Positions 6,478 to 10,427 of a stretch of 21,146 bases of DNA are shown here, one piece after another; the stretch's first letter is position 1; each line of letters begins with the position of its first letter. The position numbers and the translations under genes were made by a program. This DNA comes from a virus. Where the stretch lies: the IMG/VR virus record IMGVR_UViG_3300030106_006532, positions 1-21,146 of that record; one strand, given 5' to 3'. A model generated the notes under the pieces. The model made no database searches and was not told the DNA's origin. It saw only the letters and a list, made by a program, of their open reading frames with translations.

Positions 6478-6534
6478 TTTGATTCCGTATAAACTTTTGG
6501 TAGATTGTGGCAAACATTATACAAGGTTGCAACC
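6478..6534. promoter_or_regulatory. Divergent promoter/operator region
   Basis: The short gap between the divergent RHH and oxygenase genes holds two outward-facing -10-like elements arranged as an inverted repeat, GTATAA (6487-6492) and TTATAC (6517-6522). A perfect 10-bp palindrome GGTTGCAACC (6525-6534) directly abuts the ATG at 6535 and could be an operator. The -35 elements are weak. These are visual calls, not scored predictions. Confidence 0.45.
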
Positions 6535-7257
6535 ATGTATGAATTGAAGAACTATCTACTCAGTATGCAGAGCCACTGGATGATAAACCAGCCCCTGTAT
6601 GACGCGGTGCAGAAGTCTATGCCGATGATTGCGAGATATACAGGTAAGCAGGGTATGGAACGCTTAGAAGAAACGCCAGTATCCAAAATGGCTAAACAGG
6701 TATTCCCTGGGATATATCGGATCCCATTATTCAGACGTCAGTTCTGCAAGCTTATGGTCGAAGAGATCGGGCATATGGTTAAGGAGATTCCCTTCGAGCC
6801 AAATGATTCGGAGGACGAGCTACGCCAGATACCGGAGATTGTGCTGCGCGAACATATACCGGCGCTGTACCGCAACATGTGGTTTGTGGTTAACACGGTT
6901 TTGAATCCCATCATCATTTCTCTGTTTCAGCGAGAGTGCCGGGACATAGCTAGCGTACAGATTGCCAATTACAACCTCGCAGAGAAGAAACAGGGCGCTT
7001 GGCACCATGACGAGAGCGCAGATATAAGCGTAGTGGTTCCCCTCAACACGGGAGCATATAAAGGTGGTGGAACAGAGTTTCACCGGCACGGTGTGTTAAA
7101 GCCACTGCCCAGCGGCCATGCGTTGATCTTCCCAAGCTTTACGAATCTGCATCGAGGTCTAGAGGTCACCAAGGGCGATCGATACCTTCTCGTGTTCTGG
7201 CTGTTTAACAAGAAAAGAACGATCGATTTGTATGAAAATATGATTACAGATTATTGA
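6535..7257 (+). CDS. 2-oxoglutarate/Fe(II)-dependent oxygenase
   Basis: The 240-aa product has the double-stranded beta-helix signature of 2OG-Fe(II) oxygenases in its C-terminal half. There is an iron-binding HxD (H157-H158-D159, in WHHDESAD), a GGGTEF block near residue 177, a distal H206 (NLHRGLEV) and R216 (KGDRYLLV), which would bind the 2OG carboxylate. The N-terminal 110 residues are helical and not recognised. The start at 6535 (MYELKNY) is preferred over an upstream TTG at 6505 because the latter lies within the apparent promoter. There is no Shine-Dalgarno, and a -10-like TATACA ends 11 nt upstream, so the mRNA may be nearly leaderless. Substrate is unknown; phage members of this broad family can act on nucleic acid bases or proteins. 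It is divergent from the RHH regulator. Confidence 0.85.
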   Translation: MYELKNYLLSMQSHWMINQPLYDAVQKSMPMIARYTGKQGMERLEETPVSKMAKQVFPGIYRIPLFRRQFCKLMVEEIGHMVKEIPFEPNDSEDELRQIPEIVLREHIPALYRNMWFVVNTVLNPIIISLFQRECRDIASVQIANYNLAEKKQGAWHHDESADISVVVPLNTGAYKGGGTEFHRHGVLKPLPSGHALIFPSFTNLHRGLEVTKGDRYLLVFWLFNKKRTIDLYENMITDY

Positions 7258-7263
7258 GTAAAA

Positions 7264-7298
7264 GTGTGGACAACGACACGGGATTCAGGCATTATAAT
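7264..7298 (+). promoter_or_regulatory. Promoter A of the ACAACGACACGG family
   Basis: It contains a -35-like TGGACA (7267-7272) running straight into the conserved CAACGACACGG (to 7281). The -10 is either TATAAT (7293-7298, 20-nt spacing) or CATTAT (7290-7295, 17-nt spacing). The same element recurs at 8669 and 9821. Transcription starting just downstream would exclude the ATG at 7300, supporting the start of the next gene at 7327. Confidence 0.7.
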
Positions 7299-7326
7299 CA
7301 TGTCTTTAAAAAAACAGGAGTTAGAA

Positions 7327-7518
7327 ATGGATCGAATAGCACACGAGATTGAAGTTTTAGAGTATACGATCGACGGTTACATCAACGATTGCCGATCGAT
7401 AATGGGAGCCCAGTTTTTTGGTGACGATTATGATTGGGAGTCTGACAAGGAAGTCCAGGGCTTGCGAGAAAAGATCGGTGAACTCAGAAAAATTCAACAA
7501 CGACTACTAACCGCATAA
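7327..7518 (+). CDS. Small acidic coiled-coil-like protein upstream of ribozyme
   Basis: The start is the ATG at 7327, with AGGAG 6 nt upstream; the ATG at 7300 lies at the likely transcription start. The 63-aa product begins MDRIAHEIEVLEYTIDGYI, has an acidic middle (GDDYDWESDKE) and ends in a helix (LREKIGELRKIQQRLL). It looks like two helices that could pair as a coiled coil. The family is not recognised. The TAA stop at 7516-7518 is directly followed by the first stem of the hammerhead ribozyme, so ribosomes terminating here would physically cover part of the ribozyme. Confidence 0.7.
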   Translation: MDRIAHEIEVLEYTIDGYINDCRSIMGAQFFGDDYDWESDKEVQGLREKIGELRKIQQRLLTA

Positions 7519-7573
7519 TCCAACTGACGAGAGCTGGATGGCATCCAGCCGAAACGCCGCGAGGCGTCTTGGA
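7519..7573 (+). ncRNA. Type I hammerhead ribozyme
   Basis: All core elements are present in order. Stem I is TCCAA (7519-7523) with TTGGA (7569-7573). CTGACGA (7524-7530) matches the CUGANGA core. Stem II is G7531-C7550 plus GCTGGAT (7533-7539) with ATCCAGC (7543-7549), closed by GGC, with A7532 bulged. GAAA follows at 7551-7554. Stem III is CGCC/GGCG (7555-7558, 7563-7566) capped by the GNRA tetraloop GCGA. A15.1-U16.1 corresponds to A7554-T7567, and the cleavage triplet GTC places self-cleavage after C7568. The open ends lie in stem I, making it type I. The bulged A next to the core is the only blemish. Cleavage would give the downstream mRNA a 5'-OH end 30 nt before the start codon at 7599. 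Confidence 0.87.
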
Positions 7574-7598
7574 AAGCCAACAACTAAGGGAAAACAAT

Positions 7599-7940
7599 AT
7601 GAAAATAGAATTAGAATTCACTGAGCAAGAAATCGATTTACTTGTGAACACGCTCTGCCCAGACTTCGCTTCTGAACAGCCGCATCGTTTTGAGGTGCCT
7701 ACTGTCCAAGATGGCAACTTGAGCGAAGATAACCTTCACGATCAAACGATCCAAAAGTTTGTGGGTGAACACGATGGAGAGGCAGCGCTGTCTTTCGTAG
7801 GTGACCAATTCTTGGTTGCGAAGATTTACGCTGACTGGTGGACTCAGAAGTTGGGCAAGAAATGCCACATTTTATGGGATACCCATAGTGAAGAGTGGGC
7901 TGTCTGGGTTCCCGAGTTTTACGAGGAGCTTGCTGCTTGA
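7599..7940 (+). CDS. Small acidic protein just downstream of ribozyme
   Basis: The ATG at 7599 was chosen because AAGGG lies about 8 nt upstream; the TTG at 7569 is at the ribozyme cleavage site. The 113-aa product (MKIELEFTEQEIDLLVN...) is acidic, with a C-terminal aromatic stretch (YADWWTQKLGKKCHILWDTH then WAVWVPEF). The family is not recognised. Its leader, GCCAACAACTAAGGGAAAACA, resembles the leaders of the genes at 8731 and 9882, but here it would be exposed by ribozyme cleavage rather than by its own promoter. The stop overlaps the next start as TTGA. Confidence 0.75.
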   Translation: MKIELEFTEQEIDLLVNTLCPDFASEQPHRFEVPTVQDGNLSEDNLHDQTIQKFVGEHDGEAALSFVGDQFLVAKIYADWWTQKLGKKCHILWDTHSEEWAVWVPEFYEELAA

Positions 7941-8110
7941 GAGCCCATCTCACCTTTCAGGGCCAGGAGGAGCCGATCGAGATCGAAGCCGGCTCCTACT
8001 CTGGTCTCTTCAAACAGTTTGTTAAAACCCTCAAAGCCAATAATTTCGATGAGGATCAACTGGTTCACGCGAGAGTGGACCTAGTGTCTATCAATGACAA
8101 AAATAAATAA
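7937..8110 (+). CDS. Small unknown protein, TTG start
   Basis: I place the start at the TTG of a TTGA overlap with the preceding stop because GAGGAG (7923-7928) sits 8 nt upstream; earlier starts run inside the preceding gene. The 57-aa product (RAHLTFQGQEEPIEIEAGSY...) looks like a short beta-rich N-terminus followed by a helix (YSGLFKQFVKTLKANN). The family is not recognised. Its end overlaps the kinase-like gene by 17 nt, placing it in the same early operon. Confidence 0.65.
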   Translation: MRAHLTFQGQEEPIEIEAGSYSGLFKQFVKTLKANNFDEDQLVHARVDLVSINDKNK

Positions 8111-8498
8111 TCCGCACAAAACTCTTTATCTGATACGAGGCTTGCCTGGATCAGGTAAGAGCACGTTGGCAAAGAGACTGGCTTCACGAGTGTTGATTGA
8201 GGCAGACACTTGGTTTTACGATCATGACGGTAATTACAACTTCGATCCCAAAGAGCTGCCCCAAGCTCACCACTATTGTGAAACGGTTACGTTACACGCG
8301 ATGGTGCATGGCGAGCCACAAATAGCGGTCGCTAACACATTTTCCCAAAAGTGGGAGATGGAGCCTTATCTACGACTCGCCGAAAAATACAACTACACCG
8401 TGAATATTATTGAGTGCCAAAACGATTATGGCTCTGTGCATGGTGTCCCGAGAGAAAATATCCAGGCGATGAAAGATCGATGGGAATCGATTGAGTGA
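8094..8498 (+). CDS. P-loop kinase-like protein (AAA_33 / polynucleotide-kinase-type)
   Basis: This 134-aa protein has a Walker A loop GLPGSGKST (residues 16-24), then IEADTW (35-40), where D38 sits where small kinases of this group carry a substrate-side acidic residue. The segment NYNFDPKELPQAHHYCE and the strand IAVANTFSQKWEMEPYLRLA match the NEDD4-binding-protein-2-like/AAA_33 family as I recall it. That family is related to the kinase domain of T4 polynucleotide kinase. It is short, a single kinase domain without a phosphatase half. The start overlaps the upstream gene by 17 nt. The substrate is unknown. It shares a transcript with a hammerhead ribozyme that leaves 5'-OH ends, which a polynucleotide kinase could phosphorylate; this link is speculative. 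Confidence 0.8.
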   Translation: MTKINNPHKTLYLIRGLPGSGKSTLAKRLASRVLIEADTWFYDHDGNYNFDPKELPQAHHYCETVTLHAMVHGEPQIAVANTFSQKWEMEPYLRLAEKYNYTVNIIECQNDYGSVHGVPRENIQAMKDRWESIE

Positions 8499-8668: not shown

Positions 8669-8701
8669 GTGTATACAACGACACGGAAATAGTAGTAGAA
8701 T
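8669..8701 (+). promoter_or_regulatory. Promoter B of the ACAACGACACGG family
   Basis: It has TATACA (8672-8677) as -35-like element, invariant CAACGACACGG to 8686, and TAGAAT (8696-8701) as -10 with 18-nt spacing. Immediately upstream GTCTAC (8661-8666) forms a near dyad with GTATAC. The leader after the -10 contains GCCAACAAAG and AAGGA before the ATG at 8731. Confidence 0.7.
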
Positions 8702-9769: not shown

Positions 9770-9810
9770 TCCTCAAAAGGATCAAAAGGGAGTTTCGGCT
9801 CCCTTTTTTT
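9770..9810 (+). terminator. Intrinsic terminator with upstream repeat copy 1
   Basis: AAAAGGGAG (9784-9792) pairs with CTCCCTTTT (9799-9807) around a 6-nt loop, followed by a run of T ending at 9810. It is preceded by TCCTCAAAAGGATCAAAAGG (9770-9789), which recurs exactly at 10388-10407 before the second terminator. Confidence 0.85.
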
Positions 9811-9820
9811 ATTCGTATAT

Positions 9821-9852
9821 TTGTAGACAACGACACGGTAATTTGAGATACT
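9821..9852 (+). promoter_or_regulatory. Promoter C of the ACAACGACACGG family
   Basis: TAGACA (9824-9829) serves as -35, with invariant CAACGACACGG to 9838 and GATACT (9847-9852) as -10 with 17-nt spacing. The leader repeats GCCAACAAAG followed by AAGGAG, as in promoter B. Confidence 0.72.
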
Positions 9853-10121: not shown

Positions 10122-10381
10122 TGACTATCTACCACCATTACTTAGCAAACCCACCCGTTAGCCCCATCACTGGCCACCCAGATCGAGGTAGCACTGCTAG
10201 GGACGGATTCTGGGTTGGCTACAACGGTGGCCGAGCGGTAGGTCAGCCAGGTAGCGCAGCCCGATTAGCTTGGAAAGCTGGAGTCAAAGCCAAAAAGGAC
10301 GGTAACGAGAAAGCGATCCAAGCGAAAGAGAAGTTGAGTCGATTCAAGGAGAGGGTCCAATCAGAATTCGGCAAGCGATAA
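10121..10381 (+). CDS. Small basic phage protein
   Basis: This 86-aa protein starts in a TAATG overlap behind GGGAGGAGG. The N-terminal part is glycine/proline-rich with aromatics (HPDRGSTARDGFWVGYNGG, residues about 19-37) and the C-terminal part is a lysine-rich helix (KAKKDGNEKAIQAKEKLSRF). The basic helix could bind nucleic acid or an acidic partner, but the family is not recognised. It closes the promoter C unit, 20 nt before an intrinsic terminator. Confidence 0.75.
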   Translation: MTIYHHYLANPPVSPITGHPDRGSTARDGFWVGYNGGRAVGQPGSAARLAWKAGVKAKKDGNEKAIQAKEKLSRFKERVQSEFGKR

Positions 10382-10387
10382 AACTGT

Positions 10388-10427
10388 TCCTCAAAAGGAT
10401 CAAAAGGGGCTCTCGCCCCTTTTTTTT
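10388..10427. terminator. Bidirectional intrinsic terminator with repeat copy 2
   Basis: AAAAGGGGC (10402-10410) pairs with GCCCCTTTT (10415-10423) around TCTC, followed by T to 10427. The A-rich side makes it symmetrical, so it could also stop leftward transcripts. The leftward gene at 10400-10636 ends inside this hairpin. TCCTCAAAAGGATCAAAAGG at 10388-10407 matches the copy at 9770-9789. Confidence 0.85.

Follow-up and report, generated by a model that had tools for sequence, protein, structure and literature searches.

A predicted type I hammerhead ribozyme with a loop II–leader pseudoknot at the border between a replaceable small gene and a conserved phage operon

Positions 7519–7573 on the plus strand of a complete IMG/VR virus record (21,146 bases, the entire stretch analysed here and called the window below) are almost certainly occupied by a type I hammerhead ribozyme, whose loop II would form a pseudoknot with the leader of the operon behind it. 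This identity is based on sequence and covariation, from which self-cleavage is predicted. A type I hammerhead was already recognized here in a first-pass annotation, and all the elements that it named were found where it had placed them. The 5'-strand of the covarying stem I (UCCAA, 7519–7523) is followed by the catalytic core segment CUGACGA (7524–7530), stem-loop II (7531–7550, with the pair G7531–C7550, a bulged A7532, helix 7533–7539/7543–7549 and the loop GGC at 7540–7542), the core segment GAAA (7551–7554), stem-loop III (7555–7566, where CGCC 7555–7558 and GGCG 7563–7566 enclose GCGA), nucleotides U16.1 and C17 (7567–7568) and the 3'-strand of stem I (UUGGA, 7569–7573). Cleavage is predicted between C7568 and U7569. 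The core complies with the rule C3UGANGA9 ... G12AAA ... U16.1 H17 (CUGACGA, GAAA, U7567, C7568), the core-adjacent pairs 1.1–2.1, 10.1–11.1 and A15.1–U16.1 are represented by U7569–A7523, G7531–C7550 and A7554–U7567, and the topology is that of type I, with stem I open and loops closing stems II and III. Since GGC of loop II (pseudoknot strand 1) pairs with GCC at 7576–7578 of the leader (strand 2), the element extends to approximately 7579, and its sequence thereby offers the tertiary contact between the regions of stems I and II.

All genes adjoining the element are read in its direction. The small upstream gene (7327–7518, 63 aa) starts with ATG 7327 preceded by the Shine-Dalgarno sequence AGGAG (7316–7320), within a frame that is open from GTG 7264, and its stop codon TAA (7516–7518) directly adjoins stem I. 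The next ATG, at 7599, lies 30 nt past the predicted cut, and both distances agree with the earlier reading. It opens a gene for a product of 113 aa (7599–7940), which is the first in a conserved operon and belongs to no known family. The leader that would remain after cleavage (7569–7598, 30 nt) contains the Shine-Dalgarno sequence AAGGGA (7586–7591).

A covariance model, R1, was constructed from 52 phage hammerheads of the same subtype with close relatives of this phage excluded. It scored the element with 80.6 bits (E=3.5e-25). A strict descriptor, which demanded the core, five pairs in stem I and four in stem III, had a single match in the window, against 2 matches in 1500 first-order Markov windows; given this rarity and the R1 score, a chance motif was rejected. 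No second hammerhead was found in the window by the strict descriptor, by a relaxed one or by the covariance model, for which the next-best place had E=0.5. The Rfam model of type I hammerheads (RF00163), proposed earlier as a check, did report the element (20.8 bits, E=0.0085 in 221 nt), but with a score below its gathering cut-off of 34 bits, which is a curation threshold rather than a defining feature of ribozymes. This shortfall does not count against the element, because at curated cut-offs Rfam reported zero hammerheads in 12 loci containing many clear type I phage hammerheads (L128, L133, L135, L058, L010, L012, L015, L017, L101, L060, L132 and L078). Curated cut-offs therefore miss phage hammerheads of this kind, which are likely to be under-annotated. 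The RAGATH-1 hammerhead (RF03152) has the hammerhead core in common with the element, but membership in that family was rejected, as the score was only 16.8 bits against a gathering threshold of 56.3.

The phage hammerheads used for comparison were collected in two pattern scans of IMG/VR, both leaving stem I unspecified. The subtype pattern was found in 29 stretches of IMG/VR and had no match in 84,980 bacterial and archaeal species, each represented by one genome, while a broader pattern matched 56 stretches in one-per-species bacterial and archaeal genomes and at least 120 in IMG/VR. Against named phages, the DNA of the window gave no match to near relatives, the ribozyme gave short partial matches only, and the closest phages were detected by their primase, with approximately 34% identity. 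One named phage, Streptomyces phage Paedore, carries between gp62 and gp61 (L288, ~690–770) an unannotated arrangement CGAAAC-GCC..GGC-GTC-stem I-CTGACGA, which is possibly a type II (permuted) hammerhead.

In the 52 subtype relatives 99.4% of cells were paired and 192 cells were changed on both sides, which far exceeds shuffles and slid controls, and all five helices showed two-sided changes with pairing preserved. Lack of compensatory changes in the stems of homologous phages had been named at first reading as an observation that would speak against a ribozyme; all stems were found to covary. The choice of sequences had partly predetermined stems II and III, so that the independent weight comes from stem I and the pseudoknot. 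For stem I it was estimated on unfiltered pattern matches: at least 4 bp can be formed in 118 of the 125 distinct broad-pattern matches listed, compared with a mean of 12.8 for shuffled partners, and 56 different four-pair combinations occur among 182 collected hammerheads. The pseudoknot, which played no role in selection, is formed by triplets that are exact reverse complements in 48 of 53 other subtype members (mean 24.4 and maximum 33 in 10,000 shuffles). The pairs are of many types (GGU/ACC, GGC/GCC, AGU/ACU, GGA/UCC, GAU/AUC, GGG/CCC, GAA/UUC and GAC/GUC), and compensatory changes in relatives are seen at all three pairs. In the hammerheads tested by Perreault et al. such a pseudoknot was required for fast cleavage (PMC3088659). 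Whatever other roles the element may have, this covariation argues for selection on its RNA structure.

Computed folding does not reproduce this structure. The nested minimum-energy fold differs from the hammerhead (−23.4 versus −20.2 kcal/mol with the pseudoknot left out), another structure being favoured by 3.2 kcal/mol in the window, with margins of several kcal/mol for most subtype members. Neither the pseudoknot nor tertiary contacts are represented in such models. Pairing of AUCCA (7518–7522) with UGGAU (7535–7539) as a conserved folding switch was tried and rejected, as its covariation was not beyond that in shuffles. Since the competing pairing does not covary, the disagreement is attributed to the limitations of nested energy models and not to a conserved switch. 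It might also be taken to mean that the hammerhead has decayed and has no present function, the more so that 4 of 18 consensus hammerheads tested earlier showed no cleavage (PMC3088659). This is hardly credible for an element with an intact core and strong covariation across its subtype, which is kept full-length in three relatives and remains near-identical in the four phages; the sole difference is C→U at N7, the one core position that is free to vary.

The position between a stop and a start codon is common for elements of this kind. In 129 of 178 distinct phage hammerheads an ORF stop lies between −60 and +15 nt relative to stem I, with a start codon 0–80 nt past the cut, both on the sense strand, while by the same criteria only 1 of 178 was registered on the antisense strand and 34 of 534 at random places. 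The start follows the cut by 29 nt in the median (interquartile range 24–34), so that the offsets in the window, 0 nt for the stop and 30 nt for the start, are typical. In 37 of the 178, UGA of the CUGA core itself serves as the upstream stop codon. Examples of this arrangement are at L132:5916, L141:8213 and, on the minus strand, L137:1139. Such proximity could mean that a terminating ribosome blocks or guides folding, in which case cleavage would report translation of the upstream gene. A link of this sort between termination and folding was suggested at first reading, and the part of it that stands is the geometry: the stop abuts stem I in the window and coincides with the core UGA in L132, L137 and L141. 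The competing fold that would have to be regulated shows no covariation, however, and part of the stop pattern is mechanical, since any frame entering the motif meets a stop. Translation-controlled cleavage is therefore very improbable.

The relatives gathered through the downstream gene and the primase showed what is replaced at this border. The gene of a 2OG-oxygenase located before the small gene (6505–7257) is 98–99% identical in L132, L137 and L141, and the gene behind the ribozyme (7599–7940) is 88–96% identical. No homologues of the small upstream ORF were found, and it has no counterpart in these three relatives, where its position is taken by an unrelated ORF of 114 aa common to L132 and L141 or by an ORF of 86 aa in L137. 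On the left homology stops just past a promoter-like element, on the right at stem I, the 5' edge of the ribozyme. In another pair of genomes, L161 and L172, a segment with a promoter and a gene is present or absent exactly between the stop codon and the ribozyme. The ribozyme is replaceable too, because the site holds something else in some relatives (L166, L124, L098). In L166, L098 and L109 a GC-rich hairpin, such as GGCCGC-GTAA-GCGGCC, with the stop codon in or near its loop, takes the place of the ribozyme before genes that have a hammerhead in relatives; such hairpins are perhaps another border element, processed by a protein. L132 (7337–7400), L141 (9634–9697) and L137 (4826–4889, minus strand) carry a second hammerhead, whose stem II is long and whose stem III has just 2 bp; its neighbours on both sides in L137 differ from those in L132 and L141.

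The same data can be read at the level of DNA, where a ribozyme of 55–70 nt would serve as a shared sequence for recombination and its activity as RNA would be secondary or a selfish relic. Termination of homology at the ribozyme edge and the exchange of genes on both sides of the second hammerhead are in line with this. So are two further loci. In L128 a short segment separates two hammerheads (1799–2116), and in L148 a single hammerhead (10126–10193, minus strand) has both outer flanks, as if the two ribozymes had fused with loss of the intervening segment by recombination. Breakpoints were also commoner at ribozymes (65/80) than at other gene ends (262/601), which is only suggestive, as near-duplicate contigs are included in the counts and weaken the argument for a linker. 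One-sided homology was registered at 52 of 55 ribozymes and 134 of 164 control junctions (p=0.03), a modest margin for observations that are non-independent. Gene borders are in any case where phage genomes break. Moreover, changes in the stems and the pseudoknot are compensated, which is not expected from selection for DNA identity, and a mere recombination linker is quite unlikely.

On its left the variable segment begins just past the promoter-like element at 7265–7295 (plus strand), which is conserved in relatives and consists of the repeat TGTGGACAACGACACGG with TGGACA-17-CATTAT. The repeat TGT-N2-ACAACGACACGG is found in the window at 7265–7281, 8670–8686 and 9822–9838 (3 copies against 0.04 expected) and also in many relatives. 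A −10-like box comes next, and frequently a leader such as GCCAACAAAG-TAAGGA-ATG; the standard leader after the repeat may be written as GCCAACAA..TAAGGA before ATG. The repeat is probably a recurrent phage promoter. The promoters are consensus matches, the 6 of which are about as many as were obtained in shuffles (mean 4.0), while the repeat itself is not due to chance. Another repeat, of 40 nt, contains a terminator-like hairpin in both of its copies; the first (9770–9809) precedes the third promoter repeat, and the second (10388–10427) lies between convergent genes.

A conserved promoter-like repeat and a conserved leader flank the ribozyme, and the leader left by the predicted cleavage, UUGGAAAGCCAACAACUAAGGGAAAACAAU, has the same make-up as the leaders that follow the promoter repeat. 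In L157, where both the small ORF and the ribozyme are absent, the promoter repeat directly precedes ACGAACCATAAAGCCAACAATTAAGGGAACCAAC-ATG, that is the same leader. A second case is provided by gene N, located behind the second ribozyme in L132 and L141 but directly behind the promoter repeat in L137, with the leader GCCAACAAAG(A)TAAGGAGTAAAC and the coding start conserved across them. Based on these two sites one can conclude that the promoter and the ribozyme alternate before the same genes. This relationship, the gene replacement ending at the ribozyme and the pseudoknot were all missed by the first-pass annotation.

The following sequence of events can be suggested. Transcription would start at the promoter-like element near 7267–7295, judging by its consensus matches, and run through the replaceable small gene into the conserved operon from 7599. 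The nascent RNA would fold and cleave itself co-transcriptionally at C7568|U7569. The upstream product would then end in stems II and III right behind its stop codon, and the downstream one would begin with a 5'-hydroxyl and with 30 nt of leader nearly identical to that after the phage's own promoters, for which reason the ribozyme may be regarded as a generator of 5' ends, or an insulator. The two messages would be separated, and the leader of the operon would become independent of whichever gene is upstream. Post-transcriptional separation of the two genes, already proposed at first reading, is the most likely consequence of the predicted cut. We infer cleavage in the cell, the transcription start site and insulation as the selected trait, and consider it probable on the whole that the ribozyme splits the transcript, restores a native-like leader and insulates the operon from the upstream gene. 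Against this interpretation stand the preference of nested folding for another structure, the promoters that are consensus matches only, the tendency of phage genomes to break between genes, the replaceability of the ribozyme, and the fact that the alternation of promoter and ribozyme was seen just twice, within one phage lineage. More tentatively, the element may be a natural insulator at a site of gene exchange, where a small gene together with its hammerhead is inserted or swapped between the promoter and the leader of the operon.

Alternatively, the cut could be kept because it sets the lifetimes of the two messages and not because it insulates the leader. In the type I layout stem I is open, and it is by this arrangement that the upstream product retains stems II and III, two hairpins immediately past its stop codon that could protect the 3' end; in phage hammerheads at large, stops tend to lie close to stem I. 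RNA with a 5'-hydroxyl is in turn a poor substrate for 5'-monophosphate-dependent decay by RNase E. Stability alone, however, explains neither the native-like leader nor the alternation of promoters and ribozymes, and differential stability is rather unlikely to be the main reason for the cut, compared with the regeneration of the leader proposed above. In the same operon a P-loop kinase-like gene (AAA_33, 8094–8498) has weak similarity to phage polynucleotide kinases and no match among solved structures, and its product could act on 5'-hydroxyl ends. L137 has no such gene and yet keeps the ribozyme.

Hammerheads flanking phage genes have been known since 2011, when prophage examples were found to flank small genes, to process polycistronic RNA and to form loop pseudoknots (Perreault et al., PMC3088659), and the element of the window is another of them. 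A review of 2017 linked prokaryotic hammerheads to phages and called their role open (PMC6155905). The bacterial and prophage type I elements have the same core, three stems, open stem I and stem I–II pseudoknot as the one described here (PMC3088659). They occur several per genome around single small genes (PMC3088659, PMC6155905), and cleavage of native polycistronic RNA was shown for some of them (PMC3088659). The element described here differs in being located on a contig of an uncultured phage, in scoring below the Rfam cut-off and in that the small gene before it is swapped or absent in close relatives, while the ribozyme and the operon are kept.

The closest parallel to the proposed role is synthetic: in the insulator RiboJ a hammerhead trims variable upstream RNA and leaves a uniform 5' end (PMC6206723). 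RiboJ is derived from sTRSV by engineering, has a 23-nt hairpin behind it and takes away a leader only (PMC6206723), while in the window the RNA cut off would include a gene, and one strand of the pseudoknot is supplied by the leader itself. Theta ribozymes of gut phages are likewise self-cleaving and recurrent at borders of phage RNAs, but have an HDV-like fold and are located at tRNA 3' ends, not at an mRNA border (PMC10879173). Among systems based on proteins a comparable layout is found in phage T7. Its polycistronic early mRNA is cut at gene borders by RNase III at intercistronic sites, which gives defined ends. Cleavage in the window is predicted to be catalysed by RNA, so that no host enzyme is needed and the chemistry of the ends is different. 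In the open-access literature, as far as it was covered, no description of an alternation between a gene with a ribozyme and a promoter was found.

These phages provide natural pairs with and without the element: the window, L132, L137 and L141 against L157 for the first ribozyme, and L132 with L141 against L137 for the second. Since members of the pairs share the promoter repeat, the leader and the downstream gene, resetting of the mRNA 5' end by the ribozyme, as proposed here, can be put to a direct test. If the more tentative reading of a natural insulator at a site of gene exchange is true, self-cleavage would regenerate the native 5' leader and phages could acquire new genes with the operon left undisturbed, and the promoter and the ribozyme would be interchangeable means of giving an mRNA a fresh start.
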